64,000 nucleotides of DNA from Massilia sp. Se16.2.3 (GTDB taxonomy: Bacteria; Pseudomonadota; Gammaproteobacteria; Burkholderiales; Burkholderiaceae_D), in NCBI RefSeq assembly GCF_014171595.1, contig NZ_CP050451.1:3100001-3164000 (forward strand). Reading direction: 5' to 3'. How positions within the stretch are numbered: the stretch's first letter is position 1; each line of letters begins with the position of its first letter. The position numbers were made by a program, and so were the translations under genes. Shown here piece after piece: positions 33,199-54,737 of the stretch. A model generated the notes under the pieces. That model had not been told where the DNA came from. It did no database searches and saw nothing but the letters and a program-made list of their open reading frames with translations.

Positions 33199-33458
33199 AG
33201 TGTTTCTCCTTGCGGGTGGGGTGGCGATGTGTGCACTCTAGCCAGAGCGCCCCGCCGGCGTAAGCGGATTGCGACAAGCCGCATGAAAAGCGGGATGACC
33301 TGCACAAAACCGCACCTGACGGGGGCTAACCGGCCTTGAACGCCGCTCAAATGACGCTAACGCGAGCATAAGCTGCGCCACAGGCCTGTCCGGCGCCTTT
33401 CCGCTCCCCCCGCTAGCCGCAGGCGGGCGCGGCCCTTGCGCCGCCGCGAGGAGAACAC

Positions 33459-36400
33459 ATGCAGGGAATGATCGCCACCGCCGTCGCAAGCCTGGCCGCC
33501 AATCGCCGGGCCTGGCGGCGCGCGCGCAATGTGCGGGCTGGAAGCCGGAACGCGGCGCCTGGCAGGACGCGCGCGGTAGCGGCCACGGACCGGCAAGGCG
33601 CCGGCGCGCCGGCCTGGTGGAGCGCCCTCGGCGCACTGCTGCTCGTCGCCGGTGGCGCGGCCGTGATCGCACTCCACGCGCGCGCGCTCGGCGGCGCCGT
33701 CCTGCCCGCCGCGGGCGGCGGCGTGCACACGCTGGCCGCCTTCCAGGGCGCCTTGCCCGGCCTGGCCTTCAGCGTGCCGCGCGAGCCGGGCGTGAGCCTG
33801 ACGCAGCATCCGGGCGGCGCCTTGCTGGTGGTGGCGGACATGCGCGCTGCGCGCCCGGTCGTCGTCGACCTGTGCCAGCAGATGCTCGATCGCGACAGCG
33901 GCCGCCTGGCGCCGCTGCGCGTCGGTGCCCGCTTCGGCGACGTGGCCCGCTGGGTGGCGCACAAGGACGGCGCGGCCAGCCCGGTCCTGCTGCGCAACGT
34001 GGTGCTGGCATCCGACGCGATGCCGCTGCTGGACATAACAGGCAGGGGCGCGCGGCGGGGCGCCCTTGCAGCTGCGCTGGCGTGGCCCGCCCGCAGTCAG
34101 CTGGGTCGGCGAGGGCGGCGCCGTCGTGCGCGGCGACAGCGGCAACGCCACGCTCGGGCGCGAAGGCTGGCTGGTCTGGGGCGGGCAGGGCGCACTGCGG
34201 GTGGCGCGGCGCGCAAGCGGCAGCTGCCCCGCAGCCGGGGAACTGGTGCTGACGCGCTACCATGCCGTGGGGTCGGCCGGCCCGGCACTGGTGGCGGCTT
34301 TTCCGCAACAGGGCCCCGTCCGCAGCGCGGTGCTGGCGCCAGGCGACTACCGGGTGCCGGCCGCGCCGCCCGCCGCGCTGGAAGACGCTGCGCTGTTCGA
34401 CAGCCTGCTCGCGCGCGGCCTCCTGCGCCTGGCGCCGGGCGGACTCGTCGAGGTGGCGCCGCGCGACCTGGCCCTGTGGCGCATGGCCGGCGCCGACCTG
34501 CGCGCGGCCGACCTGCATCGCTGGGATGGCGTACGGCTCGACGCGGAGGGCCTGCGCCTGCTCGCCCGCCTGCACGGCCGCGCCGACGGTGCCTTCGTAC
34601 GCGAGCAGGTACGCATTTTCAATGCCGAGCGGCGCCTGCTGGCCTGGCGCCTGCGTCCTGGCGGCCTGCCCGCGGGGAGCTGGCAAGCCAGCGTCGGCGG
34701 CGTGGCGGTGAGTGCCAGGGCGGCCATGCCGCCGGCAAGCAGCCGGCTCTTCGCGAGCCTGCCCGCGGGCTGGGCACCGTGGCAGCGCGTGGACGATTGG
34801 CCAGCGGGAGCCGGCGCTGCCGCGCCTGTGCGCCTGGTGCTGCGGCTGGGGCAGCCGGCCCGCGGCGGCGAACGCTTCGACCTGATGCTGGCGGGACGCC
34901 TGCGCGCGCTCGAGGGAGCCGCGCTGACCGGAGACCAGGCACTCTGCCAGGGGCGGGCCTGCCGCGATGCCGGCGAGGTGCGCGCGCTGACACTCCAGCT
35001 GCTTCCCGGGGCGCGCCAGGTGCTGCTGGAGGCGGCGCCGCTCGACCTGGCGGCCATGGGTACTTACGACGGTGCCTATCGCCACCTGACCCTGAGCGGC
35101 GGGCACCTTGCGTGGAAGGCCTTGCCGCCGCCCACGGCAAGCGGCACGACCGCTACTACCGAGGCGAGGATCAGCGACCGCCACGGCACCCCTTGTGGCA
35201 GGACGGCGCCACGACTGCCGCGGCCCGGGGCGCCGGCCTGTCGACCCTGCTTGGCCTGCATCCCGGCCACGCCGGCAGCATCGCCGGCATGCTGGGGCGC
35301 TTGCCCGCGTCCAATGGCGAGGCGCACGCCGCCCGCCTGACGCTCGACCTGGCCCTGCAGCGCGCAGCGCAGGGCGTGCTCGACTGCGTCGGCCTGCGCC
35401 GGGGCAGCTGGGACGGTGCACGCTGCCAGGGCGGCGGCGCCGTCCCAAGCGGACGCCAGGCCGGCCTGGTGCTGCTCGACACCGGCAGTGGCGACATCCT
35501 GGCCGCCGCCAGCGCGGGCGCGGCCGATACCTCGGCGTCCGCGTGGGAGGAAGTGCGCGATTTCGATCGCGCCGACCCCGCGCGCAGCCCGCTGCGCCAG
35601 GCGGCGCTGCAGCACGACGGCGGCGCCGAGCGCAGTCCGGGTCGACCTTCAAGATCGTCACCGCGCTCGGCCTGGAACTGGCGGCGCAGCGCGATCCGCG
35701 CCTGGACGCGCTGCTCAGCGGGATGGCGCTGCCCGGCATCAACCGCCTCGCCGCCGGCCGCGGCTTCGCTTTCCGCACCGACGCCGCGACCTATCCGAGC
35801 GCGGGCAGCAGCGCCCATATCACGAATTTCCGCGACCAGCAGCTCGACAGGCGTGCGAAGGACGGCAAGCTCGGACTGGCCGAGGCGCTGGGCTACAGCC
35901 TCAATACCTGGTTCGCCTGGACCGCGGAACTGAGCGACGCCAGCCTGTTCGGCCGTCCGGCGGGCGGGGCGCCCAGCCTGCGCGCGCTCGACCCCGAGGC
36001 GCTGGCCGGCGTGCGCCCGGTGGCGGACATGGCACGCAGGATCGGCTTCGAGCGCAGCCTGCGCCTGGACGGCGGCCTGCTGCCGCCCGACTACGGCTGG
36101 CGCCCCCGGGACGCGCTGGAGGCAAGCGTCGCCGCGTTCGACCCGATCGGCTCGCGCCACGAACTGCGGCAGATGGCGATCGGCCTGCGCATGCAGGCCA
36201 CGCCCCTGCACATGGCGCTGGCGGCGGGCGCGGTGGGCGAAGGGCGGGCGATCGTCCCGCGCATGTTGCGGGAACTGGACGGGCGGCGCGCCGTCGATGC
36301 CGCTGGCGCGCCGCTGGGCGTGCGCCTGGACCGCATCCGTGCCGGCCTGCATGGCGTCGTCACCGAGGGTACGGCGGCGGGGGGGCCTTTCGCGATCCCG

Positions 36401-36648
36401 CTTTCGCCGGGCTGCGCGCCGGCCTGTATGGCAAGACGGGCACCGCGCCGGTCGGCCAGGACGGGCTGGCGACCGTCTGGTTCACCGGCTGGCTGGAACC
36501 GGGCAGCCTGCCGGGGCAAAGCCGGCGCCTTGCCTTTGCCGCGTTCGTCAGCCGTTCCGGCGAAACCGGCGGGGCGCATGCGGCACCGGTGGTGGCCGCG
36601 CTGCTGCGCACGATGGCAATGCAGCGGCCCGAGCCGGAGCACAACTGA
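33459..36648 (+). CDS. Class B PBP-type transpeptidase with a large N-terminal extension (four frameshifts)
   Basis: About 1060 codons, roughly twice the usual size. One membrane anchor (WWSALGALLLVAGGAAV, near residues 52-68), about 560 residues of unassigned periplasmic sequence, then a penicillin-binding transpeptidase domain: SGSTFK (Ser-x-x-Lys, near 729), SLN (near 813) and KTGT (near 990). This domain cross-links peptidoglycan; class B PBPs work with a FtsW/RodA partner, and one is encoded at 50861-53164. Shifts near 34060, 35125, 35640 and 36380 (G7 run). ATG 33459 follows GAGGAGAACAC. First gene of a plus-strand run to 45676. Confidence 0.82.
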
Positions 36649-36745
36649 TCCGCTCCAGCGCGCCGTATTTCCGTGGTTCTATGGCATGATTGACAAAGTC
36701 CGTTATTCCACGGACATGCCCATGATCCGGAAGGAAGAGACAGGT

Positions 36746-38061
36746 ATGCGTTTGCCGGGAACCCGGTACCAGGAGCCAGGCTGGGAGCAGGTGCGCAAGC
36801 TGCTGGGCGCCTGTTCGCTGGACGCTTTCGCGCGCGCCGGCCTGGCCACGCTGCTCGAATCGCCGCCACCGCAATCCCCGGACGACTACATGGACGCGCT
36901 GGCCGCCAGCCTGCACGGGGCGCGCCGTTCCAGCCGCGCACTGGCCCCCGGCAACAGCTACGGCGAGACTGTGTTCGAACTGGCCTTGACGCTGGCCTGG
37001 GAGCTGGCAGCGCGCCCGGCCGACTGGGAAGCCTTCCGCACCGCGATCGCCGCCGAGCATGCGCGGCTGCCGTCCTTCTGGGAGCGGCCTGGGGGCGAAG
37101 CGCTGCTGCGCAAGAAGGTCAACGATATGTACGCCGTCCTGCGCGACAAGGTCGACGCCGACAATTACCAGGCGGCCTGCGGCCGGCCCTGCAGCCCGAA
37201 CCGGATCTACGCCTACCGCATGCTCGACACGGCCTACGGCGAGATCGCGCGCCTGTTCGACGCCTGGCGCGAGCACCGGGCGCAGGTGGGCGCGATCCTC
37301 GGCCGGCCCCTGGACGCCGCCGCGCCCATCGAAGTGCGCCAGCTGCGCTCGATCGGCGACTGCCGTCCCGAATGGATCCTGCGCTGGAGCGAAAGCCTGG
37401 AGCGCTTCACGGGTGCGGCGGGACCCCTGCACACGCGTTCCAAACGCTTCGACAGCCTGAAGGACAATGCCGGCAAGATCGGCGAGATGCTGCGCGAGAT
37501 CGGCGAGTACGACACCCTCTCGAGCAACCGCGACCTCGACTGGCTGCACGAGCGCGGGCTTGCTGCCGACTGGATGGAGGACTACTGGCGCGTGCTCGGG
37601 GAGTCCGAGGCGGCTACCACGCCGGGGCCGGACCTGATCCCGGAGGCGCGCCAGGATGCGCTCGATGCGCCGGCCGGCGTGCCCGAAGACGCCGCTCCGC
37701 CGCTTGCGGACGAGGCCCTCGATGCGGCATCGGCCGCGGCGCGCGCGCTGGCCGTTTCACTTCCCCCGGCTATCTGGTAGCGGCACGCGCCGCCGAGGAT
37801 GCGGGCAGCCTGACCGCACAGGTGCTGGCGTCCGATACGCTGCCGGTCCGGCTGGCGGTGTACCTGAAACTCCTGGGCGCCGGCGACGACAGCTATCCGC
37901 AGGCCTGGCGCGATCCGGCCAGCGGCGCACTGCCGACGATGGCGCAGCTGGCCGGCCTGGATGGCGTATCGCTGCCGACGCTGCGCAAGCGGCGCGACGC
38001 GGCGATTGCCCGGCTGACGGCCGCGATGGCGCAGGCACCACGAACAGGGAGACCCGAATGA
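36746..38061 (+). CDS. Unrecognised protein with C-terminal HTH-like helix (frameshifted)
   Basis: About 438 residues, soluble. Mainly helical, with an Arg/Trp-rich N-terminal half (RYQEPGWEQVRKLLGACS, RKKVNDMYAVLRDKVDADNYQAA, SIGDCRPEWILRWSESLERF). The C-terminus (PTMAQLAGLDGVSLPTLRKRR) has the look of a helix-turn-helix of the sigma-region-4 kind. A shift near 37750 separates the two parts. ATG 36746 follows GGAAGGAAGAGA. Its stop overlaps the next start (ATGA), so the next gene is translationally coupled. Possibly a regulator; that is inference. Confidence 0.65.
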
Positions 38062-38610
38062 CTGCAAGTAGCGATATCGAAGGCAAACTGCGCGAGCAAC
38101 TGCTGGTGGGACGGCGGGTGGAGGGCGACCGCCTGCTGCTGGGCGACGCCGTGCTGCGCGCCGCGCTCGACGGCAGCCGTCCGCTCACGGCCGGCGAGCG
38201 CGCCGCGTTGCAAGCCTCCCCATTGACCATGCGCCGCCTGCGCACGCTCGCCCTGGAGCGGCGGGCCGCCGCCATCGATGCGTGGCAGGGCAGCGGCGGC
38301 ATGCTGCGCGCCGCCGACAGCGGCGCCGGATTGACGCAGCTGGCCACCGACGACGGCTGCTTCCGCCTGCACTTCGCCGGCAGCGGCGCCGCCTGCCGGG
38401 TCATCCTGCAGCTGCTGCCGGAGGCGCCATTCGCCGCGCGCCTCCTGCGCGAGGCGGTGCTGCTGCGCGTGCTCGATGGCGCCGGCACTGAAATACTGCA
38501 GGGGCGCCTCGATGCCGACGGCGAATGCGAGTGCGCCTGGCCCCTTTCCCGATGCGCCCGCAGAGCACTTCCAGCGCCGGGGTGCGCGCTTCAGCGTGCA
38601 GGCCACCTGA
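38058..38610 (+). CDS. Unrecognised protein coupled to the HTH-like gene (frameshifted)
   Basis: About 184 residues. Helical N-terminus (KLREQLLVGRRVEGDRLL, LTAGERAALQASPLTMRRLRTLALERR) and a beta-rich C-terminus (GGMLRAADSGAGLTQLA, LHFAGSGAACRVILQLLPE, EHFQRRGARFSVQAT). A shift near 38540 (CCCCTTTCCC) is needed to reach the natural end at 38610. The overlap ATGA with the preceding gene suggests the products act together, perhaps as regulator and partner. No family recognised. Confidence 0.6.
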
Positions 38611-38627
38611 GGCCACGGAAAACGCCC

Positions 38628-39700
38628 ATGTTCGAGCTCTTCAAGCGCGTCCCGAAACCCGCTCCTTTCGACGGCGCCGGGCTGGGGACGGCCATTGTGG
38701 CGCGCCAGATCGGCGGCGGCTGCGCGCTGCCGGCCGGCACGACCGGGGTGGCGGTCGACCGCGCCGGGCGGACGCGACGCATCGCTTGCAGCGGACGGGT
38801 TGCCCTGCTGGACGGCGAAAGCGGGTGGTGCTTCCATCCCGGCCCCTACGGGTGCGACCTGGTGCCGTTCGCCGCGAGCCCCGAGATCGGACTGCGCACC
38901 GGCTTCGTGATCGACAGCCCCGACCCGCGCGTGACCCAGCAGCGTTTCGACTTATTCCTCGCCAGCGAAGCCGAGGGCGAGCTGACCCTCGCCGGCCTGG
39001 TGGCGGCCATCGAAGCGGCCCTGCAGCGCGAGCTGGCCCGGGGAATCTGCTGCTGCCGCCATGCACGACGCTCGAGGAATGGAACGCGTTCCGGGCCGGT
39101 TTCAACCAGCTGCTCTACACCCGCTTCGGGCTGACGGTCGACGATTGCGTGCCGGTGGACCTGGCGGGCCGGGTCGAGTATGCGCAGATGCTGCGTGCCC
39201 GGACGGACGCAGCCACGGCGGCCGCGGCGGCGCCGCCCCTGACGCGCCCGCCACCGCGAGCGTCCCGCCGGGCTCGAGGGCCGTACCCGACCCGGCGCAC
39301 GAGGATGCGCGTGCCTTGCGCCGCCTGTTCCTCGAGCTGCCCTGCGTGCTGTGCGGCCTGCGCATGGCGGCGCTGCCCACGGGCCAGGCGCTGTTCCGCC
39401 AGCAGCAGGCGCTGTTGACGCGGCTCGACCTTGCCAGCCTGGCCGCGAGCACGATGCCGGCGCTGGAGCTGGCGGCGCCCGGCCAGCCGCTGGCGCTTGA
39501 CGCCCGGCTGCGCCGCCTGCGCCAGCCGCCGCCGCGCGGCCGCGGCGCTCGACGAGGCCTGGGCCCTGCTGGCGCGGCTGGAGCGCGCCGGCGACGCGGA
39601 GCTGGCTGCGCTCTTCGGCGATCTCGAACGCATCGTGGCCAACCTCGAGGAGGCGCTGGCCGCACGCAAACGCGTCGGGCCCGCGGAGGACGACGAATGA
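38628..39700 (+). CDS. SPFH/band-7-like protein with coiled-coil C-terminus (three frameshifts)
   Basis: About 357 residues. The N-terminal part (MFELFKRV, then GTAIVARQIGGG, GVAVDRAGRTRRIACSGRVALLDG, TQQRFDLFLASEAEGELTLAGLVAAIEAALQREL, read across residues 1-145) has the strand pattern and final helix of SPFH-type domains and resembles the gene at 40924. The C-terminal part is helical (LRRLFLELPCVLCGLRMAALPTG, LDEAWALLARLERAGDAELAALFGDLE read in two frames) and probably coiled coil. Shifts near 39035, 39240 and 39530. Stop overlaps the next start as ATGA. Family assignment is tentative. Confidence 0.55.
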
Positions 39701-40704
39701 ACATGCCATCGAAAACCGCAGACCGTGTGGACGTGCGCAGCCTGCTCGCCGACGGCGGCGAGGTGGTGGTGACGGCCACGCGCCGCCCGCGCGACGGCCG
39801 CGCCGACATCAAGTGCAGCGTGCCCGGCGCGCCGCAGCTGGCCCTGCGCATGCAGGCGGTGGCCCGGCTGGCGCGCCACACCGAGGCCAGCTACGACAGC
39901 CGCGACCAGGTCGTGATCAGCCTGGACCGCGCACCCGCGCCGGAGGAGCGCGACTGGGAACTGGCCGTGGTGCTGGCCGACCGCATGGTGCGCGGCCTGC
40001 TGCCGCCGCGCGCGCGCTGCTGGCCAACGGCTGGTCCGGTGCCTGGCAGCTGGGACGGGTCGAAGGACATGACGTGACGGGTGCGCCCGCGGGCGCGCTG
40101 CTCGGCGGCCCCGACCACCTGGGGCATCTGGGCACCCTCAGCGGCCAGCCCGACGTGGCCGCGGCCGTGTCGTCGGCACGTGCCTGGTTCCCGCTGCACA
40201 GCGGCGGCATCAACGACAGCCTGTGCTGGGTGGAGGTCAGTGTCTATCCGCTGGCGGCAGGCGCCGACGAGGAAGCGATCGCCGCGCCCGGCCTCGACGG
40301 GCCGCGCCAGGCGGCCTTGCGCCAGGTGCTGGCGGGGGCGCGCCATTTCGATGGAGCCAGGGCCGCACGCTGGCGCACCACCGTGCGGTTCGGCGAGGGA
40401 GGGCTTCCAGGGCGAATCATACGAACTGGCGCTGGTGCTGGCCGACCGCCTGGCGCGCGGACGCGAATTCGTGCCGCGCGGGCGCATCATCGCCAGCGGC
40501 TGTTCGCGCGCCTGGCATGCGGGAGCAATCGACCCGGTCGAGGGCCTGGGGCCGAAATGCGCGCTGATTGCGCGCGAAGCGGCAGCGGGCGACCGCGTGC
40601 TGCTGCCGCGCGCCTGGGAGCGCGACCTGCCCGCAGGCTTGCGCGAGGCGCTGGCGGCAAAGGGCGCGAGCCTGGCCTGCATCGAGCGGATCGGCATCAT
40701 ATGA
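39697..40704 (+). CDS. Lon-like (S16) protease-fold protein, duplicated domain (two frameshifts)
   Basis: About 335 residues in two similar halves. First half: RDWELAVVLADRMVRGLLPP, then LANGWSGAWQLGRV. Second half: ESYELALVLADRLARGREFV, then IIASGCSRAWHAGAID. The second half follows the Lon protease domain in order: Ser in GESYELA (40417-40419) at the place of GPSAG, a Gly before the next strand, PVEGLGPK with Lys (40555-40557) at the place of PIGGLKEK, VLLP, and ERDLP for NKRDLE. Ser-to-Lys distance is 46 residues against 43 in E. coli Lon. In the first half Asp replaces Ser, so it is probably inactive. No ATPase module. Shifts near 40015 and 40400. Confidence 0.6.
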
Positions 40705-40923
40705 CGGGCGGCACAGGGCGGCGTGCGGCGCAGGGAAAGCCGCATCTGGCTGATAGAATCGGCGTAGAGCGCCTAACAAAACCTTCATAGCCGCGTTGCG
40801 GCTCCTCGCCGTACAGTCGTACTGTCTTCGTCGCCGCGCCTTGCTCTGAAGGTTTTGTAAGACGCTCTTGGCAAGAGGATGGCGGCCTTATCGAGGTTGA
40901 AGTCACGAAGATGGAGTCGGATC
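40705..40923. other. Gap inside the operon holding a palindromic repeat
   Basis: 219 bases between the Lon-like gene and the SPFH/zinc-ribbon gene, mostly taken up by the inverted-repeat element at 40766-40868. No ribosome site stronger than AAGAGGATGG before the next gene. Confidence 0.6.
40766..40868 (+). repeat. MITE-like element with 22-bp terminal inverted repeats
   Basis: Outer arms AGAGCGCCTAACAAAACC... (40766-40787) and ...GGTTTTGTAAGACGCTCT (40847-40868) pair with two mismatches. Inside are two smaller hairpins, GCCGC-GTT-GCGGC and ACAGT-CGT-ACTGT, flanked by CGTTGC and CGCGCCTTGC. The element at 63100-63258 has the same plan and shares these inner words, so both may belong to one intergenic repeat family. 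Confidence 0.7.
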
Positions 40924-43016
40924 ATGTTCCAGATGTTCGGTTTTGGCGGCACCCGCTGCCCGCGTTGTGAGCACAAGAGCGCCGGCGGCGACCACTATTG
41001 CGCGGCCTGCGGCATGACGCTGGGGGCGCCGCGCAGCGCGCCGCTGCTGCGCGAAAACCGCTGGATCGCCGGCCCCGACGAACTGGCCGTCTTCTTCGGC
41101 GTGCGCGAACTCTCCGGCCTGTTCGTGAAAACCCTGCGCGTGCCCGCCACCGCCCGCGCCTACATCCTCCAGGGCGAGCGTGCCACCGAGGTGCCGCAGG
41201 GCGAATACGAGATCGAAGGCTTTTTCACGCGCCTGAACCACCTGCTGCGCGATGGCCATGCCGAGATCCTGGTCACGCGCACGAACGCCTTGCCGGTGGA
41301 GTTCAGTCTTGAAGTCGAGACGGCCGAACACCTGGTGGTGGAGGCGCGTTTCACCGTCGACCTGCGCATCGAGAACGTGCCGGCTTTTGCGCGCCACTTC
41401 ATGACCATGCCCGGCACCGTGACGGTGGCCCAGCTGCACGAACTACTGGCGCCCGGCGTGCGCCAGCTTGCCGCCGAATTCATCGGCAGCCAGTCGCTGC
41501 GCGAGATGGCGGCCAACCGCGCATTGCGGCAGCAGTTCGACGAACGCCTGCAGGGGGCGCGCTGCGCCTGCAGCTGGCCGGCTATGGCCTCGGCGTGGCG
41601 GCCGTGCAGACCCTGGCCCTGCGCCACGACAAGTTCGATGCCAACCGTGCCCGCATCGGGACCCTGTGGCTGGCCGCCGACGAACGCCGCGTCCAGATGG
41701 AGCATGCGCGCCAGCTCGAGGAACTCTACGACGAAGGGGAGTGGCACAAGATCCGGCGCGAAGAAGGGGAAGCGCGCCTGCGCCTGCGCCGCCGCCGGAA
41801 GCGCGCCAGGCCGAGACGCTCGAACGGGGCGAGACGACGCTGGCCAATTCCGAACGCTACCTGGCCCTGCGCACGCGCGAGATCGAACTGTACGGGCGCA
41901 TTGCCGAAGCGCGCTCGCGGCGCGAAGCCATCGACCGGGGCGCCGGCGAAACCCTGGCCGAGCTGGAACACGCGCTGGCGCGGAAACGCGGCGTCCGCGC
42001 CGGCGAGGCGGCCGAGTGGGCGCAAGTGCAGGCGCTGGCGCGGATCCGCATGCGCGGCGCGCTCGAACTGGCGCAGCAGGAAACGCTGCAGGCACGCCGG
42101 CTGGCGCAGCAGCGCTTTTTCGCAGCAGCTGCTGGTGCAGCAGATCCGCAACAAGGTCGAGCAGGCCGCGGCCATCGAGGACGCCACGCGCCGCCGCGCC
42201 GAGCTGGCGCGACTGGCGGCAAGCGAAGCGCAGGCGGCCCAGCAGGCCTGCGAACTCGACGAGGAAGAGCACAAGGCGCAGTTCGACCTGGTACGGCTGG
42301 CCAATGCCGCGCGCCGCCGCGCCGCCGAGCGCGAGGAAGAATGGCTGGAATCGCAGCAGGCGGGACGCCTGCGTGCGCTGCAACACAGCCAGGACCTGGA
42401 AGCGGAAGGCCTGCGCCAGCAGATCGAGGCCTTGCGCCGCGCCGGAGGGCAGGAGGATGCGATCGCCCAGCACGAGAAGCTCCTGCGCACGATCGATGCC
42501 GAAGCGCGCCAGGCACGGGCGGCGAAGGAAGTCGAGCTGCTGGCCCAGGAGCGCCAGGCCGCCCATGAACTGGCCCGCGCCGAAGCGCTCGACCGGGTTG
42601 ACGACACGACCAAGCTGGCGGTGGCCGCGGCCCCCAACGCCGCCGTGCTGGCCGACTACCTGAAGACGCGCGTGCACGCGGGGATGGACGCCGGCCAGCT
42701 GGCGGCGCTGGCCGGCGTGGTCGCCGCCGGCGGCGCGGTAGGCGCGCTCGATGCCGCGCGCCTGGTGGAGGAAGCGGCCGAACGCGAACGGGCGCGCCGC
42801 GACCTCGAGGTCGACAAGGACCGCGCCCACCAGCTGGCCTTGCTGGCGCTGCAGAACGAGGTCAACAAGGCGGCGCTGGGCGCGCAGGCGCAGGTGGCCG
42901 GCGGCGTCGGCGCCGCCCTCGTGTCCGCAAGCGCCGGCGCCCGCTGCGCGAATGGCCACGCGCTGGCGGCGGGCGAGCGCTGCTGCGCCGCCTGCGGTGC
43001 GGCGCGCACTGGCTGA
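40924..43016 (+). CDS. SPFH-like scaffold protein with zinc ribbons at both ends (three frameshifts)
   Basis: About 698 residues. N-terminal ribbon RCPRCEHKSAGGDHYCAACG; an SPFH/band-7-like region (VLV-type strands: ELAVFFGVRELSGLFVKTL, VEFSLEVETAEHLVVEARFTVDL, TVAQLHELLAPGVRQLAAEFI); a coiled coil of over 300 residues (ELEHALARKRGVRAGEAAEW, RRRAAEREEEWLESQQAGRL); and a C-terminal ribbon RCANGHALAAGERCCAACG. SPFH proteins form membrane-associated rings that gather partners such as kinases and proteases. Shifts near 41560, 41815 and 42112. It ends nine bases before the kinase start. Confidence 0.72.
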
Positions 43017-43025
43017 GCGCAAGCG

Positions 43026-45439
<2,414 letters not shown>

Positions 45440-45565
45440 ACGCCCACCCGCGGACGACCGCGCCCGCGCCCGATTCCTGACGGCTAGCGTGCGCAAGGCG
45501 GCAATCGCAAGGAGTAGGCTGTGGCCTGTCGAATGGTCCATCCACCGCACTCGAAAGGAAGCGCC

Positions 45566-45676
45566 ATGAACATCCCGGAGCACCTGCGGATTCCGTTGAT
45601 CGTGTTCGGGCTGCAGGCCGCCTTGCTGGCGGGCTGTGCGCTCATCTTCATCGTGATGTTGCCGCAAGGGCACTGA
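45566..45676 (+). CDS. Small membrane protein, 36 residues
   Basis: ATG at 45566 with GAAAGGAAGCG directly upstream, the best ribosome site in this area. The peptide starts MNIPEHLRIP and is then one hydrophobic helix (LIVFGLQAALLAGCALIFIV) ending MLPQGH. It is the last gene of the plus-strand run, 127 bases after the kinase-FGE gene and 25 bases before the convergent FHA gene. Function unknown; it could be an anchor or regulator of the cluster's membrane partners. Confidence 0.6.
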   Translation: MNIPEHLRIPLIVFGLQAALLAGCALIFIVMLPQGH

Positions 45677-45700
45677 GCGTACCCGGACCCGGGCGCGGCC

Positions 45701-47206
45701 CTAGAGGCTCAGCGCAAAACCGTGGTCGTGCGCCGCAGGGGACGGCAGGGACAGGCGCAGCTCGGGATACGGATCGGTGCGAAAGCGCCCGTCCGCGGGC
45801 CAGCCGCTCAAGCCGCTGGTCGCCGCCGTCGGGCTGAGCGCGGTCTCCACGCCCGTGCCCGGATCGAGATGCCAGAAGCCGCCGTCGCGGTGGAACAGCA
45901 GCGGCAGGCCGGGCGCGCCCTGGCCCGGATGGCTGCCCGGATGGCGCTCGGGGTCGAGCAGCCAGATGGCCTCGTGCGCCGCGCCGGCGTCCGTCCGCTG
46001 CAGGACGATGCCGTTCGGCAGCACGGCCGCCACCTCGAGCACGACCACGCCGGGAATGCTGGCGGTGAACGCCAGGCGCATCCCGGGACGCAGGGGCAGC
46101 GCCATGTGCTTGCCGGGCCAGGCGCCATCGACCAGCAGGCCATAGCGCGAAACGTCTTCGATTTCGTAGCCCGCGCGGCCGCGCCGGATCAGCGCATGCC
46201 GGGCCGAGATGCGCCGCGTCAAGCCTTCGTGTGCGATGCCCTGGCCGTCGTGGTGGGCGAGCAGCACATCGGCCATGGCATCGGGCTCCAGGCGCCCCAG
46301 TACGCATTCGTCCAGCGCGAACAGGCGCAGGTAGCGCGCCTGGCCTGCTTGCGTTGCCGGGCCGGCGATACAGGCCGCGCTGGCGGGGCAGGCATGGGCG
46401 GGGGCGCGCGCCGGCGGGTCGGTCTCGAGCAAGTCCTCGTCCCAGGCGATGCTGGAAAAGCCGAGGTCGATCTTGCCGCCGCCGGCATCGAGGTCGAGAT
46501 GGGCGATGCCGGCATTGTAGGCGCTGACGTCGATGTCGAGCCGGCCGCCGCCATCGAGCTGCCCGCGCACGCGGGCAATCGAGCCGTCGTCGGCGCTTAC
46601 GCGGACGTTCTTGTGGGTGGCAAGGAAGGTCTGGTGGATTTCGTGCAGGCTGGCGTCCAGCCGCGGCGCCAGGATGAGCAGGGTCGCCACCCAGGTGCGC
46701 GCAGGCAGGCCAAGGGCTGGACGGCTGCGCAGTTCAAGCGCGATGCGGTATTGGCCGTGTTCGAGGTCGCGCGAGGAAAATTCGAGAAAGACCGGCAGCC
46801 ATTCGCCGCGCAGGGTGCGGGTGAAGGCGTGGCGCGCACCGCCGTCGAGGCGCAGGCGCGAACTGGCGAGCAGGGTGACTTCGCGCGCGCAATCGGCCGG
46901 CATGCCGCGCAGTTCCAGCTTCAGCAGCTGGCGCCCGCCGGCCGCGCGCGGGTCGAAACCGCTCACATGCAGGTGGGGACGGACCGGACTTGCGGCGCAG
47001 CGGACCGGGCCGCTCGGCAGGATGGCCGCTGCCTGGACGACCGCGGCGGCAGCGGCGATGTCCCTGGCTTCGCTATCGACCGTGCCGATCTGGCGCGCCG
47101 CTGCCGCTGCGGGCGCCGGCTGCGCGTGGCCGTGCGCGCAAGCGCCGTCCCCGGGCATGACCCAGAGGGTGCAGTGCGGATGATCGGGATTGCTGCAACG
47201 GTTCAT
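45701..47206 (-). CDS. FHA-domain protein with N-terminal Cys/His motif
   Basis: 501 residues, frame intact. The N-terminus MNRCSNPDHPHCTLW ... GACAHGH has a Cys/His pattern that could bind zinc. A beta-rich middle region follows (DPRAAGGRQLLKLELRGMP, LRGEWLPVFLEFSSRDLEHG). The FHA domain is near residues 330-430: CVLGRLEPDAMADVLL, LTRRISARHALIRRG with the Ser-Arg-x-His core, and YEIEDVSRYGLLVDG. FHA domains bind phosphothreonine, so this is a likely reader of the two kinases. It follows the PP2C gene by 107 bases. Confidence 0.85.
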   Translation of the reverse strand: MNRCSNPDHPHCTLWVMPGDGACAHGHAQPAPAAAAARQIGTVDSEARDIAAAAAVVQAAAILPSGPVRCAASPVRPHLHVSGFDPRAAGGRQLLKLELRGMPADCAREVTLLASSRLRLDGGARHAFTRTLRGEWLPVFLEFSSRDLEHGQYRIALELRSRPALGLPARTWVATLLILAPRLDASLHEIHQTFLATHKNVRVSADDGSIARVRGQLDGGGRLDIDVSAYNAGIAHLDLDAGGGKIDLGFSSIAWDEDLLETDPPARAPAHACPASAACIAGPATQAGQARYLRLFALDECVLGRLEPDAMADVLLAHHDGQGIAHEGLTRRISARHALIRRGRAGYEIEDVSRYGLLVDGAWPGKHMALPLRPGMRLAFTASIPGVVVLEVAAVLPNGIVLQRTDAGAAHEAIWLLDPERHPGSHPGQGAPGLPLLFHRDGGFWHLDPGTGVETALSPTAATSGLSGWPADGRFRTDPYPELRLSLPSPAAHDHGFALSL

Positions 47207-47313
47207 GGTCGGCGAGGTCGTGGGAGTAGCGTCTGCCTGGCCGAGCATACGCCGATCCGCCCAGCCGTGGCGCCCGCCTGGGCTCGCCGCACCGTGTTTT
47301 CCTGACAGGGGAA

Positions 47314-48259
47314 TCAGGCGGAGGGCAGCGCAGTCTCGTCGCGGTGGGGGCCCCGCGTGCGCAGTACGATGGCGGTCAGGTTGTCCGGCTGCAGGCCCAC
47401 CGGCGGGCGCAGCGCGATCTCGGCGAACAGGGCCTCCACGCAGGCGGCCGCACCCGCGCCGGCGAACAGCCGCGGCCAGCGCGCGACGAACTCGGCCGGA
47501 TCGAGGCAGGACCAGAAGCCGTCGCTGGCGAGCAGGTAGCAGGCGTGCGGCCGCAGCGTCACGGCGCGCCGGTCCGGCAGCGCGCGCAGCCAGGGTGGCA
47601 GGATGTCGGGCGTGAGGGCGAACAGGGCGTCGTCGAGGCGGGTCGGATCGACGAAGGTATTGCCGAGGATGAAAGCCTGGGCGATCTGGGGCGCATGCGC
47701 GCCATGCACGGCGCGCCGCCATTCGTCTTCGTCGACGAGGCCGGCCAGGGCCAGCACCGTGGCCGGTACGTGGTCGATCGTCAGTGTCCGCAGGTCGTCG
47801 GCATCGATTTCGTAGAGGCGCGAGTCGCCGGCGTGCCAGAGCAGCGCATCGGCGCCGGGCGGCAGTTCGAGCAGCGTCAGTGTCGTGCCGGGACGCGGTC
47901 CGGCCAGCGGCGCGAACTGCCGCTGCAACTGGCCGTGCAGGGCGTCGAGGTGGGCGGACAGGGTAGGGATGTCGCTGCAGGCCGGGAGGCCTAGCAAACC
48001 CCTGGGCGAGCGCCTCGGCCGCTTCGCGACCATGGCCGTGGCCGCCCATGCCGTCGAGCACGGCCAGGCGCACCTGGCCGGGCGGCCAGCCGGGAACGCG
48101 GCGCCGCTGTGGCCTGCCCTCGACCAGGCAGGCGGCGTTGCCGGCGGCGTCGATGAGCACGCAGTTGTCCTGGTTTTCGGCGCGCTGCAACTCGCCGACG
48201 CCGAGCGCGCTGCGCGCCGCAACGTCCAGGTGGGGACCGAAGTCCAGGCTGTCGAACAT
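47314..48259 (-). CDS. PP2C-type Ser/Thr protein phosphatase (frameshifted)
   Basis: About 315 residues. Metal-dependent phosphatase with the family motifs in order: RAENQDN near residue 26, VLDGMGGHGHG near 64, HAGDSRLYEI, LLASDGFWSCL and QPDNLTAIVLRTRG. These hold the metal-binding Asp residues. A slip near 47995 (CCCC) breaks the frame. No membrane segment. It would reverse the action of the two kinases of the cluster. ATG 48259 is the start because the conserved N-terminus (MFDSLDFGPHLDVAARS) begins there. Confidence 0.9.
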
Positions 48260-48367
48260 GCGCCTCGCTGCCTCCTGTGATGGGTGCGGTGGATGGGGAA
48301 AGCCTGCCGGGGCTGGCCGGGCCAAGGCCCCTATGGTATGTTAAGGTTTTGGAAACGCCAAGCACCC

Positions 48368-48826
48368 ATGCTGATTCGTCCCTTCGAAGCTGCCGACCTG
48401 ACTGCCGTGGCCCGCCTGTTGCGCGCCAGTGCCAGCGAATTCATCGTGCACGAGTCCTCCCCGGAGGGCGCGGCCACCTTCCTGCGCGAAAACGACGAGG
48501 ACGGACTGCGCGGCTATCTCGCGCAAGGCTACGCCTACCACGTGGCTTGCGATGGAGACGCGCTGGCCGGTTTCGTCGCGATGCGCGGCAACGACCACCT
48601 GTTCCACCTGTTCGTCGACAAGCGCTGGCATGGGCAAGGCCTGGCGCGGCGCCTGTGGCTGGCGGCGCGCGACGCGGCGCTCGCGCGGGGCGGCAGCGGC
48701 AGCTTCACCGTCAATGCCTCGAATTTCGCGATGCCGGTCTACGAGCGCTTCGGTTTCGTGCGCACCGCGCCCACCCAGTGCGTGAAAGGCCTGTACTTCA
48801 ACCCGATGCGCTTGACGCAGGATTGA
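48368..48826 (+). CDS. GNAT family N-acetyltransferase
   Basis: 152 residues. Starts MLIRPFEAADLTAVARLL; acetyl-CoA loop LFVDKRWHGQGLARRLW near residues 79-95; then VNASNFAMPVYERFGFVRTAP. Substrate unknown. It lies on the opposite strand between the PP2C gene and the SH3 gene, splitting the minus-strand run, and may have nothing to do with the cluster. A weak -10 (TATGTT) precedes it. Confidence 0.92.
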   Translation: MLIRPFEAADLTAVARLLRASASEFIVHESSPEGAATFLRENDEDGLRGYLAQGYAYHVACDGDALAGFVAMRGNDHLFHLFVDKRWHGQGLARRLWLAARDAALARGGSGSFTVNASNFAMPVYERFGFVRTAPTQCVKGLYFNPMRLTQD

Positions 48827-48833
48827 CCCTGCC

Positions 48834-49279
48834 TCAGCGCCGCCCTTCGTCGGCGCGGCGTAGCCACAGGCTGCTGGCCCAGCCAGCGAGCGGCACGCCA
48901 TCGACCTCCGTGCTTACCTGCCACCAGTCGCCATCGCGGCGGCCCGTCGTCTCGACTTTCGATCCGGCTGGCAGCACCACCACCCGTGGCGAACCCGTGC
49001 CGCCGGCGGCGCGCAGGTTCAGCGGCGCGGCGACGCGGTAGCTGCGTCCCGGCCGGGGCGCTTCGATCTGGCGGTGGCCGGCGCCGCCGGCGGGTCGGAC
49101 CGGTGCGGCGCCAGCCACCACAGCGCGCTGCCGATGGCCGCCGTGCCCCCGACCAGCACCAGCAAGGCGCGTGCATTCGGGCGGCGCCACCAGGCGCGCG
49201 GCGTCGCATGCGCGGCCAGGACCAGGGTCGCGGCCAGGCTTGCTGCGCCACAGGCCAGGGCGAGCGGCAGCGCTTCCAT
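48834..49279 (-). CDS. Membrane protein with C-terminal SH3-like domain (frameshifted)
   Basis: About 148 residues. Two hydrophobic segments (LPLALACGAASLAATLVLAAH and ALLVLVGGTAAIGSALWWLA) are followed by a periplasmic bacterial SH3 domain (VVVLPAGSKVETTGRRDGDWW, VDGVPLAGWASSLWL). Bacterial SH3 domains often bind cell-wall peptides. A slip near 49085 joins the two halves. It starts two bases after the preceding FHA-like gene, so it belongs to the same unit. Confidence 0.78.
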
Positions 49280-49281
49280 GC

Positions 49282-50856
49282 TCACGCTTCCACGCGCAGC
49301 ACGTAGTGGCCGGCGACGATGTGGTGGCCGACCGGCACCGGTAGGCCTCCTCGCCCGCCGCCGTGTCGATGGCGGCGACGAAACCGAGCCGTTCGTCGAG
49401 GTGGTAAAGCGCCTGCGTGGCCGCCAGGCGGGTGACGTGGCAGCCTTCCAGCCCGGCCTCGAAGCGGAAGGCCGTGCGCGACAGGCCAAGCCGATCGGCG
49501 CCGCCGGCATGGAGTCCGTCGGCCCCGCGCAGGCAGGTGGCGGCGTCGAGCACGCGCAGCGGGAGCCAGGGCCGTCGTTCCGCGTCCGAAGGTGAGGGGC
49601 GCGCCGTGCTCGACCGCGAGCGCCGGCGCCTGCGGCAAGCGCACGAGGGCGCTGTAGCGGTCCGCCATTGCCGGCGCCGGTGCCAGGACCTGGATGTCGA
49701 CGCCGTCGAGCGGGGCGAAGCGGCTCGGGACGGCGATGCGCTGGCGTCCGTCCGCGCCCAGCACGTGGACCTCGTCCGCTGCGTCGACGGCGAAGCCGAT
49801 CAGGGTATCGCTACCCAGCGGGCCGGCGCCGAGCTGGCGGTCGAACCCGAATTCGACGGCGGCTGCGCCGGTGTCGCGGTAGCGCGAGAGGCGCGGCAGG
49901 GCCAGGGCGGCGAGGGCAATGCGCGCCCGTGCCACTGGGGCGTAGGTGGCTTCCAGTGCCGCGGGGCGGGCGCGCTCGCCGCCCGCTGCAGCGCCGGCAC
50001 GGCCGTGAGCTCGGCATCGTCCGGGGCCCGCGTGCGCGACTTCCACACCGCCGGCGCGCGCGCCGGGGCAGCAGCGGCAGGCGCCTGCTCGGGCACGAGC
50101 AGGCGGCGTGGCGAGCGCCGGCGCGGCGGCGCTGCGCGTCACTTTCAATAGCAGCCGCGCCGTGCCGGCGGTTCCGTCGGGCTGGCGCGCGCGGACCGTG
50201 TAGTAGCCGGCGAGCGCATCGAAGCTGCAGTCGAAGGCGTCCTTTGGCCGCACCTGCACTTCCAGCGGGGCATCCGGTCCGTCGTTGATCAGGAGGATGG
50301 CCCCATCCTGGGCGAAGGGCCAGCCCGGCACCGCGTGGGTACAGCTGGCCGCGTCATGGCCGAGCACCGTCAGGCGTCCGTTCGGGTACACCGGGCAGAC
50401 CGGCTGCCAGATGGCGCTGTCGCGCGAAACGCTGACCGTGTAGAGCACCGCCTCGTCCGGCGCCGGCAGGTAGACCGCATGGCCGAACTTCACCTCGACC
50501 TGGCCAGGTTCCACCGCGTCGGAGCCCAGCACGTGGTAGCGCACCTCGTCAAGCCCGAGCAGGTCGCCAAAGTCCTTCTGGTGCAGTGCCTGCAGCGATT
50601 GCGCCAGGTCGCGCACGCGGGCGCCGCGCGTCAGGTGGCGGTCGTCGTCGACCTCGTCCTGCGGCAGCATCAGGGTGACGTGCGAGAAGCAGCGGGTGGC
50701 GGCGCGGCCGCGCTGTTCGCGCGGGGCGCGTTCGAGCAGGTCGCGCAGCAGGGGACGGCGCGCGAACAGCGCCAGGCCCGGTGCCTGCCACAGCGCTTCG
50801 GCATTGAAGACGTCGCTGACGCGGTTCAGGGTTTCGTGTTGGACGTAGACCGGCAT
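49282..50856 (-). CDS. FHA-like domain protein (four frameshifts)
   Basis: About 524 codons. N-terminus MPVYVQHETLNRVSDVFN with FSHVTLMLPQDEVDDDRHL, a beta-rich middle (VKFGHAVYLPAPDEAVLY, TVRARQPDGTAGTARLLLKV), and a C-terminal region (GAPLTFGRG, RLGLSRTAFRFEAGLEGCHV, GHHIVAGHYVLRV) with the strand order and GR/SR positions of an FHA domain. Slips near 50100, 49975, 49570 and 49345; the C-terminal assignment depends on correcting them. The start is four bases from the FtsW-type stop, with AGGAG inside that gene's end. Confidence 0.7.
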   Translation of the reverse strand: MPVYVQHETLNRVSDVFNAEALWQAPGLALFARRPLLRDLLERAPREQRGRAATRCFSHVTLMLPQDEVDDDRHLTRGARVRDLAQSLQALHQKDFGDLLGLDEVRYHVLGSDAVEPGQVEVKFGHAVYLPAPDEAVLYTVSVSRDSAIWQPVCPVYPNGRLTVLGHDAASCTHAVPGWPFAQDGAILLINDGPDAPLEVQVRPKDAFDCSFDALAGYYTVRARQPDGTAGTARLLLKVTRSAAAPALATPPARARAGACRCCPGARAGGVEVAHAGPGRCRAHGRAGAAAGGERARPAALEATYAPVARARIALAALALPRLSRYRDTGAAAVEFGFDRQLGAGPLGSDTLIGFAVDAADEVHVLGADGRQRIAVPSRFAPLDGVDIQVLAPAPAMADRYSALVRLPQAPALAVEHGAPLTFGRGTTALAPAARARRRHLPARGRRTPCRRRRSAWPVAHGLPLRGRAGRLPRHPPGGHAGALPPRRTARFRRRHRHGGGRGGLPVPVGHHIVAGHYVLRVEA

Positions 50857-50860
50857 GATG

Positions 50861-53164
50861 TCAATTCTCCTCTAAGGTGGACTCGCCTGCGGCAGCCACG
50901 GCTAGCAGGGGGAAGATGAAAAACAGGAGGTGCGAGCCGCCGGCGGAGAGAAAACTCATCGGCTGGCCCATGACGGGAAAAAAGGCGAGGTTGGTGCCCC
51001 AGGAGAGCAGGAAGTGGCCGAGCACGAAGGCGCCGCCGCCGCACAGCAGGAAACAGCGGAAGCGGCCGCGCCAGGCCTCGTGGTAGTTGCGCGCCGCCGC
51101 ACCCGCGCGCCAGGCGCGCAGCGCCGCATGGAGCAGGGCGCACAGGAACAGGGCCTGCAGCGTCCACAAGCCCAGGCCGGCGAGCAGGCCATGGCGCTGC
51201 AGCAGGAAGGAAGGCGCGAAGTCGTCCTGCACCGCCGGGATCGCCAGCGCCGCGGCCGCGCCCTGGCCGAGTGCGGACAGGCCGAAGGCGCTGTCGATGC
51301 CGCTCCAGCCGCCGGCGCCGATCGCCTGCGCGCCCAGCAGCAGCTGGGCACCGGTATGCGGATGGGCGGCCGGGTCGAGCCAGACGCCGAAGCGCTCGCC
51401 GTAGAAGCGCCAGCCTTCCGCTTCCAGCGGGCTGGCCGCGCGCAGCAGCACCGGGGCAGCCGCGCCGGCGCACAGCAGTCCGGCGACGGCCAGCGCCGCA
51501 CCGCGCCGGCGCGCCGCGCACGACCAGGCCAGCAGCATCGCCGCGGCCCAGACCAGCAGCAGGATCAGCGGCGAGTAATCGTCGACCTGCACCGGGGCCA
51601 CCGCCAGCAGCGCGGCGAACAGCAGCGCGGGCGCGACCAGGCGCAGCCAGGGGGGCAGCGAGCGAGAGCGCGCGTCGCCGCTGCCGAGTCCCAGCGCGAT
51701 GCAGTGCGCGCACAGGGCCGTCAGGGCGAGTTTGGCAAATTCCACCGGCTGCAGGTCGAACACGCCGGTCTCGTCGCCCCAGCCGACCTGCACCAGCAGT
51801 GCGCCGACCGCGACAAAGGCCAGGGCAAGGAGCGCCGCCTCCACCCGCGCCGGCGCCGGCTGTGCGCCACGCGGCCATGCGGTCCAGACGCCGAGCAGGC
51901 CCGTGCCGAGCGTGACCGCCGCCGCCGTCTTCTGGAAGTGGCGCAGCCAGGCGCTGTCGGGCGCGCCCGTGCCCAGTTCCAGCTGCAGCAGCAGGCCGGC
52001 CGCGAGCAGCACCACGGCGCAGGCGATCACCCCGCCGCCCCGGCACCAGGCCAGGACGCAGGCCAGCGCAGCGCAGGCGGCCAGCAGCGACCATGCGGCA
52101 CCCGGCGCGGCGCCCAGGCGCCCGGCCAGCAGCAGCCCGAGCCCGAGGATGGCCAGCAGGACGCCGGCGCCGAAGCCCAGCGCCTGGGCCGGGTTCTTGC
52201 GGCCTTGTCCGCGCCGGGCGAGCAGGGCGGCGAGCACGCCGCCGGCAGCGGCCAGGCCTGCCCACCAGGAGGCCTGCGCGGGCACGGCCCGGGGATCGCG
52301 GCGCGTCCACTGCCAGGACACGCCAGCGGGGAGTTCGGCGCGCGGGGCTGTCCGCAGGACGAGCTTGCCGGCGGGTTCGAGGTGCAGCCGGTCGCCAAGC
52401 ACGGCTACGCTCAGGCGGGTGCGCCCGACCCTGAGCGCGGTGACGCCGGCCAGCGGGAAGTCGACGAGCGCGAGTTCGCGCGGCAGGCCCGCCGCGTCCA
52501 CCAGCAGCGGCAGGCGGGCCGCGCCGGCCAGCAGGACCGGGTCGCCATCCTCGAGGACGATGGCCGCGCCGCCGGTATCGACGTCGGGGTTGCCGATGCG
52601 ATTGCCGCAATCGAGGCTGCCGCCAAACGTCACCGGCCGCGCAGGCGCCAGCGCGGAAGGCGCGATACGGCGCCAGACCGAGAAAAAGGCGTGCGCCCGC
52701 ACCTGCATCGGGACAAGGCGGAAGTGCCGCGCCGTCTCGCTGCAGCAGGACGCCGTCATAGCGCCAGGTATGGGCCGCGTCGCTCAATAGCAGGTGGCCG
52801 GTGCCCGCTTCGCGCACGCGGTAGGCGCGCGCGCCGAGCTGGAAGCGCATGCCTGTCCCTAGCGCGACCGCGCCGCTGCGCGTGCGCACCGGGCCCCGCT
52901 CGATGCCGATCGGTGGCGCCCCTGCCATCCCGGCCGCCCACCAGGCGCCGGCGTCGTCGCGGCGCAGGCTCAGGCCCCGCCGGGGGCGCCGGCCGCGGCC
53001 AGTTCGTTTCCGCCGAGTTGGAGCGCGCCTCCCGCGGCCAGGGTCACGTCGACGCGGGTGGGCAGCCAGGCCGGCGGCATGCGCACCAGCGCCGCCGCCA
53101 TCAGGGCGCACAGCAGGACAAGGAGCGCGGCGGCCGTCATCCTGCCGATGCGCGCGGCGCTCAT
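50861..53164 (-). CDS. FtsW/RodA/SpoVE-type glycan polymerase with N-terminal extension (two frameshifts)
   Basis: About 768 codons. A first membrane helix (TAAALLVLLCALMAAALV), about 240 residues of beta-rich sequence (FQLGARAYRVREAGTGHLLLS, TFGGSLDCGNRIGNP) that may be an extracytoplasmic or FHA-like domain, then around ten helices ending in FFPVMGQPMSFLSAGGSHLLF, the SEDS signature (compare P-x-x-G-x-x-x-P-F-x-S-x-G-G). SEDS proteins polymerise peptidoglycan strands from lipid II together with a class B PBP. Slips near 52975 and 52735. Its ATG overlaps the kinase stop as ATGA, so translation is coupled. Confidence 0.85.
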
Positions 53165-54128
53165 GCGACGCTCCGCCATGGCTGCGCCGCCCCGGCCGCC
53201 GCCGCGATGAGGCGGCTGATCTCGAGCGCATGGCGCGGCCGGTCTTCGCGCCGCGCCGCCAGCAGGGAGCGCAGCAGGGGCCGATGGTGCCGGGTCGGCC
53301 CCTCCGCGCGCGGCGCAGGCGGCGAAGTGCGCTGCTTCGTCCTCGGCCAGGATGGCGGGCAGGGCGCCGTCCCAGCGTTCGCGCAGGTGGGCCGCGGCGG
53401 CGTGGCCGTGCTCGCGCCAGGCGGCTGCGCAACTGCCGCAGTAGCGCAGGGTCGCGCCGCTTGTCACGAGATAGTAGAAGACCGCGCCGAGCGCGAAGTA
53501 GTCGGTGCGGGCGTCGGTCAGGTAGCCGGCACCTTGCGGAAAGAACTGTTCCGGCGCCTGCCAGCTGGCGGTGCCGGTGTAGGAATGGGCGGCGGTATCG
53601 AGCAGGCTGCGGTTGGTGCCGAAGTCGGCCAGTTTCAGGGTGGCGCTCCTCCGGTCGAGCAGCAGGTTGCCCGGTTTCAGGTCGAGGTAGCGCCAGCCGT
53701 GCGCATGCACCTTGGCCAGCGCGCCGTTGATCTGTCCCAGCCAGGCGAGCGCCTGGGGCAGCGCGATGCGCTCGCCCCCGCCGCGCCCAGCGCCCTCATG
53801 TGGGCACCGAGGTCGCCGTCGAGCAGTTCCAGCGCCATCGCGGGAAGGCCCTCGTGGCTGCCCTGGTCGAGCAGGCGGACGATGTGGCGCCCGTCCCGGG
53901 CGACAACCCGCCGAGGAAGGCGATTTCGCGCTGGGCGCATTCGCTCCAGCGCTGGCGCAGCGTGGGCGCGGCGCCTGCCATCTGCTCGCGGTTGACGAGT
54001 TTGAGTGCGACGTCCCTGAAGCCGTCGCGCCGGGCGCGCCAGAGCAGGCCGTAGGCCGAGCCGCCCAGCTGCTCGCACAGGCGGTAGTGGCCCCCGCCCA
54101 GTGCCACGATGTCGCCGCTTCCTGCCAT
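53161..54128 (-). CDS. Ser/Thr protein kinase, Hanks type (three frameshifts)
   Basis: About 323 residues. Gly-rich loop LGGSAYGLLW near residue 22, Lys in VALKLVNRE near 42, a catalytic loop YLDLKPGNLLL (the HRD His and Arg are replaced but the catalytic Asp remains), LADFGTNRS and WQAPEQFFPQG. The C-terminal part ends RREDRPRHALEISRLIAAAAG. The altered HRD motif is seen in some active bacterial kinases. Slips near 53880, 53790 and 53300. First gene of the kinase-FtsW-FHA-SH3 unit; its stop overlaps the FtsW-type start. Confidence 0.87.
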
Positions 54129-54269: not shown

Positions 54270-54737
54270 TCAGCGGCGATAGCCGTCGCGGTCCCAGCCG
54301 CGGTCGTGGCCACGGTCCCAATCGCGGCCGCGGCGATCGTCGCGGTCCCAGCCACGATTGTGGTGGCGGTGGCGCGGCTCGACGTAGACGACGGTCGACC
54401 CGCGGTAATAACGCGGCTGCTCGTAATACACCGGGCGTGGCTGCTCGTAGTAGACCGGCTGCGGCTGGACGTACACCGGGGCCGGCTGGTAATAATCGAC
54501 CGAAGCATAGCCGCGGCCGCCGTAGCGGCGGTCATCGTGGCCGCCGATCGAGTTGCCCACCGCAGCGCCGAGCACGCCGCCGACGACGGCGCCGCCGCTG
54601 CCGCCGGCGCTATGGCCGATGGCTGCGCCCAGCACCGCGCCGACCGCCGTATTGACGCCGCGATCGCCGGCGAATGCCGAGGGCGAGACGGCAGCCGCGG
54701 CCAGGATCACCGCACCAAAGCATTTTTTGTTCAACAT
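54270..54737 (-). CDS. Glycine-zipper exported protein with Tyr/Pro and Arg/Asp-rich tail
   Basis: 155 residues. Signal peptide (MLNKKCFGAVILAAAAVSPSAFA); a glycine-zipper region (GVNTAVGAVLGAAIGHSAG, GGAVVGGVLGAAVGNSIGG) like the 17-kDa/SlyB membrane-insertion type; then repeated YYEQPRPVYYEQPRYY and a tail of WDRDDRRGRDWDRGHDRGW type. Probably associates with the outer membrane. ATG 54737 follows AAAAGGAAAAG. Function unknown. Confidence 0.85.
   Translation of the reverse strand: MLNKKCFGAVILAAAAVSPSAFAGDRGVNTAVGAVLGAAIGHSAGGSGGAVVGGVLGAAVGNSIGGHDDRRYGGRGYASVDYYQPAPVYVQPQPVYYEQPRPVYYEQPRYYRGSTVVYVEPRHRHHNRGWDRDDRRGRDWDRGHDRGWDRDGYRR

Follow-up and report, generated by a model that had tools for sequence, protein, structure and literature searches.

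A third SEDS-transpeptidase pair encoded with Hanks kinases, a PP2C phosphatase and FHA proteins in Massilia and related genomes

Control of cell-wall synthesis by Ser/Thr phosphorylation is known mainly from Gram-positives. A stretch of 64,000 nucleotides from Massilia sp. Se16.2.3 (positions 3100001-3164000 of contig 1 in a one-contig genome of 5.35 Mb, G000; hereafter the window) raises the question of whether a proteobacterium may also have a peptidoglycan synthase under such control. The window holds a gene cluster in two convergent runs, from a penicillin-binding protein (PBP) to a kinase-FGE fusion on the plus strand and from a kinase to an FHA protein on the minus strand (Table 1). The original prediction had seen here the seven families of the actinobacterial pknA/pknB cell-wall module, and this family set was recovered by profiles, folds and motifs: two Hanks kinases, a PP2C phosphatase, an FHA protein, an FHA-fold protein, a SEDS protein and a transpeptidase. 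We consider it probable (about 60%) that the cluster encodes a dedicated third SEDS-transpeptidase pair that makes and cross-links peptidoglycan under its own Ser/Thr phosphorylation circuit.

The cluster SEDS and PBP are a third pair, with clades of their own and catalytic residues kept. G000 contains two other SEDS genes (349 and 345 bits), and two housekeeping SEDS and transpeptidase genes each were found besides the cluster pair in the relatives G070 and G170 and in Chitinilyticum (G330). In the SEDS tree, six third SEDS proteins split from 14 FtsW/RodA sequences at 100/100, while in the PBP tree the three cluster PBPs form a group of their own (98/98) outside the FtsI, MrdA and class A rows. 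For the latter tree, 4 of the 21 chosen loci (L134, L136, L139 and L150) were dropped by the motif filter, and the join with an OXA-like row was flagged as long-branch. The distinctness of the pair from the divisome and elongasome copies, on which the original prediction depended, is thus borne out both by the trees and by the two further housekeeping pairs in the genomes.

The third SEDS protein matches PF01098 with 66.0-67.7 bits (cut-off 26.4) and has the SEDS fold, scoring the RodA and FtsW models of NCBIfam alike. Its architecture runs from one transmembrane (TM) segment through the FHA-like domain(s) and three more TM segments to the SEDS core. Conserved cavity residues that matter for SEDS catalysis (QPxExxK and the Asp residues of the PDLG site and of the (T)DF motif) are all retained in the aligned third SEDS proteins (6/6). 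A periplasmic location is predicted for the FHA-like part, in which no phosphothreonine-binding residues are conserved. Since the profile-profile comparison of the FHA-like parts gave only weak matches, the best being the SEDS N-domain against the FHA domain at P 0.055, we turned to structure models. No paper on an FHA-SEDS fusion was found in the open-licence PMC literature.

The cluster PBP consists of an N-terminal tail, one predicted TM segment, an ectodomain of about 550 aa belonging to no recognised family, and the transpeptidase domain. PF00905 is over its cut-off in the intact copies of relatives, including Chitinilyticum, and the STFK, SxN and KTGT motifs are kept in the cluster PBPs aligned (3/3, again including Chitinilyticum). 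The sole NCBIfam match is MrdA, far below the cut-off of that model. In a genome of another order-level lineage (G648), a protein of 164 aa whose N-terminus is hydrophobic is encoded near a contig end (L110:16648-17142) and resembles the middle of this ectodomain.

The neighbourhood recurs as a conserved unit in other genomes, the observation by which the original prediction was to be checked. The cluster SEDS is present in 35 of the 195 family genomes, G000 included, and the named carriers include Massilia, Telluria and Pseudoduganella; a block of the cluster is also found in Chitinilyticum. Searching with the G070 PBP, we obtained matches in 39 of the 195 genomes, 35 of them being exactly the SEDS-positive ones, three generic (about 20 bits) and one an assembly of 610 contigs (G091) with a cluster PBP and no SEDS. 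This co-occurrence has a Fisher p of 7e-38, for genomes that are related and not independent. Counted by hand, 30 of the 35 genomes have both genes on the same contig, at a distance of about 14-32 kb, and the other five have them on separate contigs. The plus run lies 32 kb from the SEDS in G148 and on another contig in both G045, where it is missing from the 40 kb around the SEDS, and G003, where its last gene is cut by the contig end.

At the order level 7 of 399 genomes match, six within the family and one outside (G330), whose proteins are those of Chitinilyticum aquatile (NCBI family Chitinibacteraceae). Here the second FHA-fold protein, the SEDS and the kinase form one run, with the PBP divergent and adjoining the kinase; this PBP is 36-38% identical to the Massilia-type PBPs. 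At a distance of 4 kb lies the PP2C, flanked by an AAA protein and by a fusion of a caspase (Peptidase_C14) with an FGE-sulfatase domain (L098:4563-6716), which is followed by three more FGE-like stretches (L092). Protein searches starting from Chitinilyticum returned 2 and 3 proteins in all. At the class level the FHA-fold protein query matches 3 of 369 genomes (G000, G648 and G778). Misses are likely in the order- and class-level searches because few candidates were scored per genome (at most 2 and 4, respectively). Spread by plasmids was considered and rejected, with no plasmid match at E 0.01 for the G070 PBP domain or the Chitinilyticum SEDS; up to E 10, three 39-bit matches appeared, in Rhodococcus, Tsukamurella and Rhodovulum. 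Rhodococcus plasmids (H30, H32, H34, H37 and H61) carry FtsW/RodA-family genes of their own, one of them under a 39-bit match of the cluster PBP.

By their conserved motifs, the SEDS, the PBP and the putative signalling enzymes appear to be functional. The stand-alone kinase is non-RD (YLDLKP or HLDLKP, 8 rows) and retains the Lys, Asp, Asn and DFG positions. The PP2C of G070 reaches 23.8 bits with PP2C_2, just under the cut-off of 24, and its identity is backed by NCBIfam, by solved PP2C structures and by motifs, those for metal binding being retained in all seven chosen relatives aligned (7/7). The FHA protein is over the Pfam cut-off in the G070 copies, and the GR and SxxH of its binding site are invariant in the 17 chosen rows (17/17). 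In the second FHA-fold protein, the AF2 model and VIA place one FHA fold at residues 123-233 and another at residues 283-502 (G070 numbering), behind an N-terminal alpha/beta part, with a low-confidence linker (233-290) between the N-terminal part and the C-terminal FHA fold.

Table 1. Genes of the cluster and its conserved neighbour in the window, with the basis of each assignment.
Feature	Position in window	Strand	Basis and remarks
Cluster PBP	33438..36633	+	tblastn pieces (five frames); about 1050-1090 aa in relatives
Conserved protein, no family assigned, 380-430 aa	36746..38025	+	no Pfam or NCBIfam match
Conserved protein, no family assigned, about 185 aa	38028..38549	+	no NCBIfam match
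Conserved protein, 330-349 aa (predicted as Lon-like)	39721..40701	+	no profile support
Zinc-ribbon protein, weak SPFH/Band-7 similarity	40924..43004	+	PF13240 in G070 copy; pieces in window
SHOCT, Hanks kinase and FGE-sulfatase-like fusion, one gene in relatives	43026..45403	+	kinase part 43026-43970
FHA-domain protein	45761..47206	-	FHA over cut-off in G070 copy; alignment
PP2C-type phosphatase	47359..48253	-	NCBIfam, solved structures, motifs
Bacterial SH3-domain protein	48834..49300 (upstream end approximate)	-	PF08239
Second FHA-fold protein	49285..50829	-	AF2 model, VIA matches, alignment, window pieces; no Pfam match
Third SEDS protein, N-terminal TM and FHA-like domain(s), three pieces	50832..53149	-	PF01098 over cut-off
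Hanks-type Ser/Thr kinase, non-RD in relatives, no PASTA found	53336..54128	-	profile match, alignment
Glycine-zipper protein, conserved neighbour of cluster	54270..54827	-	

Beyond the seven families, the predicted labels fared unevenly. The FGE-like fusion was rightly recognised, the kinase and FGE parts (to about 45403) forming one gene in relatives. For the SPFH-like zinc-ribbon protein, the zinc ribbon stands (PF13240 over cut-off) and the SPFH part does not reach the cut-off (Band_7_1, PF13421, E 0.018); the SH3 domain is over the cut-off in the window, with no match in the G070 open reading frame (ORF) tested. A Lon-like protease was rejected, having no Pfam match and only chance-level PDB matches (E 0.067, 0.18 or worse) to unrelated chains. 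Around the cluster, a calcineurin-like phosphoesterase and an M28 peptidase (window 54899-57874, frame-broken) flank it in most relatives with enough DNA, and a PEP-CTERM protein lies just outside it (29724-30629). An acetyltransferase-like gene inside the minus run (48281-48826, plus strand, by reading only) and an MFS transporter found there in some relatives (L052:17171-18991) are probable passengers.

Many cluster genes are split across frames in the G000 assembly, with the PBP in five pieces and the SEDS in three. Pfam matches directly in the window frames were obtained for the SEDS, the kinase, the kinase/FGE fusion and the SH3 protein, and the remaining members are clear only in relatives. 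Because of these breaks relatives served as reference, mainly G070, one protein of which matches its Massilia sp. R2A-15 counterpart exactly, and the broken genes were not mended. The PBP is likewise fragmented, or flagged with a stop, in a few relatives (e.g. G018, G106, G120, G113 and G056). For the same reason the gene ends and the ATGA overlaps of the original prediction are unreliable when read off the window; in relatives, 4-base overlaps are real, between SEDS and kinase in L053 and between the AAA protein and the PP2C in L098, where distances of 2 and 66 bases separate the SEDS from the FHA-fold gene and the kinase ORF, respectively. Stop-free frame switches were counted by a codon-model path: the 11 sampled stretches of G000 (L080-L090, 182 coding kb) contain 49, window positions 1-30000 (24.9 coding kb) contain 9 and positions 30001-59000 (26.9 coding kb) contain 14. 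In G070 there was 1 in 30 coding kb, the sampled G000 rate being about eightfold higher.

The pattern of these breaks bears on whether the cluster is decaying in this strain, its broken genes being pseudogenes. Frame switches are denser in the cluster (0.52 per kb) than in the sampled rest of the genome (about 0.27 per kb), but they occur genome-wide and in the flanking conserved genes, and the pieces of the cluster genes are still 42-76% identical to an intact relative. As most relatives are also intact, we read the breaks as assembly indels and rejected decay as highly improbable. The idea that the pair is a plain housekeeping divisome or elongasome pair is, in turn, refuted. The protein families are the same, and the fold, the catalytic motifs and the pairing of a SEDS with a transpeptidase are common to FtsW-FtsI, RodA-MrdA and the cluster pair; however, two further such pairs exist in the genomes, and the cluster proteins stand in separate clades, with extra TM segments and FHA-like domain(s), a long PBP ectodomain and loss of the EE motif. 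We also weighed an envelope-stress or conflict-type system having a wall synthase as one output, in which the zinc-ribbon/SPFH, SHOCT and FGE proteins would form a damage-sensing complex, joined in Chitinilyticum by AAA, caspase-FGE and coiled-coil proteins. The Chitinilyticum neighbourhood fits it, and the available part of PMC11237479 associates band-7, zinc-ribbon and SHOCT proteins with PSP systems and describes a HAAS-SEDS fusion. In that non-canonical protein the SEDS core is joined to another domain, as in the cluster SEDS, but the domain is HAAS and not FHA, and no kinase/PP2C/FHA set is described with it in the same part of that paper. The AAA protein and the caspase were seen in one genome only, and PADLOC gave only a generic kinase, a short PP2C, a caspase and one coiled-coil match, on which grounds a defence system was rejected; we regard a stress or conflict system as unlikely.

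A relationship with the actinobacterial locus is harder to judge. According to the available part of PMC6554272, that locus comprises seven genes, with a conserved linkage of pstP, rodA, pbpA and a PASTA kinase. Both systems have the same family set in one neighbourhood, so that the parallel holds at the family level, and it is plausible that the cluster works like the actinobacterial locus. Identity with that module is not supported: Pfam found no PASTA domain in either G070 kinase and no FhaA N-terminal domain in the FHA-fold protein (G070 and Chitinilyticum), the pair comes in addition to a full complement of housekeeping pairs, and the order is not fhaA-fhaB-pstP-rodA-pbpA-pknA-pknB, the convergent runs, which can be unlinked, having kinase, SEDS and FHA-fold protein in succession. 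In addition, FHA-like domains are fused to the SEDS, and the zinc-ribbon/SPFH and FGE-fusion members fall outside the seven-gene set, as originally noted, together with the conserved proteins of no assigned family. An old horizontal transfer from an actinobacterial or other Gram-positive pstP-rodA-pbpA-kinase locus, with later specialisation, could account for at least the PBP, the FHA-fold protein, the SEDS, the PP2C and the kinase. On PDB structures, the profile of the cluster PBP domain places 4mnr (1e-12), which we take to be an Eggerthella protein, and the "Penicillin-binding protein A" structures 3un7 (2.4e-10) and 3lo7 (1.6e-9) ahead of MrdA (1.3e-6) and FtsI (3.6e-6); likewise, a Nonomuraea PBP scores 28.5 bits, and no housekeeping PBP in the tested proteobacterial genomes exceeds 21.0. 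These two weak results may point towards a real actinobacterial link. The FHA-fold protein also ends in a C-terminal FHA fold preceded by a linker and an N-terminal part, as does FhaA, with its N-terminal globular domain and long linker (available part of PMC11898655). However, the FhaA N-terminal fold is absent from the best 50 VIA rows, in which the N-terminal part is barely covered, and besides the missing PASTA and FhaA matches and the different order, the only NCBIfam match of the PBP is the sub-cut-off MrdA, the SEDS favours neither RodA nor FtsW, the PP2C comparison ties PstP with other PP2Cs, and the trees were built without actinobacterial rows. The Nonomuraea stretch used as a yardstick has a SEDS and a PBP but, by profiles, no kinase, PP2C or FHA neighbours, and is not a pstP-type locus. 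Such a descent therefore appears doubtful to us.

Several observations weigh against a dedicated, phosphorylation-controlled third pair. In 160 of the 195 family genomes the search detected no such SEDS, which is therefore dispensable there. It has lost the EE that follows the DF motif in housekeeping SEDS proteins, Pfam detected no dimer/pedestal domain in the cluster PBPs (G070 and Chitinilyticum), and no sensor domain was found by Pfam in either kinase. Next to the cluster in L044, L045, L048 and L064, the FHA protein was found but no PP2C. In G648, the SEDS adjoins the FHA-fold gene with no kinase, PP2C or PBP nearby, the PBP being represented by a weak partial match by a contig end, and in G778 nothing but the FHA-fold gene was seen, at the start of a contig, with neither a SEDS nor a PBP found.

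Nevertheless, a dedicated third pair remains our preferred reading. Gene content, conservation, co-occurrence, separate clades, conserved catalytic residues and folds were all computed from the genomes. From them we infer enzyme activity, phosphorylation control, topology and a conditional role for the pair. The third SEDS would polymerise and the PBP would cross-link peptidoglycan, while the two kinases would phosphorylate cytosolic proteins or tails of the cluster set and the PP2C would remove these phosphates. The FHA protein and the protein with two FHA folds would read the phosphothreonines and gate or place the synthase. As the FHA-like domain(s) of the SEDS are predicted to be periplasmic and lack the phosphothreonine-binding residues, they may serve in protein contact, perhaps with the long PBP ectodomain. 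The synthase would act conditionally (e.g. under envelope stress) and not in normal growth, and a role in envelope stress is favoured by the SHOCT, zinc-ribbon and weak SPFH features, which resemble membrane-stress assemblies (available part of PMC11237479).

Enzyme families and a control logic that are already known are newly combined in the cluster, which also has an FHA-SEDS fusion, and no description of this system was found in the available open-licence PMC literature, including the accessible parts of PMC7159879 and PMC11237479. More tentatively, and at somewhat less than even odds, we suggest that a third, phosphorylation-gated peptidoglycan synthase evolved in Proteobacteria as a wall machine parallel to the divisome and elongasome, with a periplasmic FHA-like part on its SEDS and a Hanks kinase/PP2C/FHA switch. 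The presence of a third pair, together with a kinase, a phosphatase and FHA readers of its own, in soil bacteria that can be cultured would make the phosphorylation gating of a Gram-negative peptidoglycan polymerase directly testable, and the FHA-SEDS fusion offers a new handle on a possible periplasmic regulation of SEDS enzymes.

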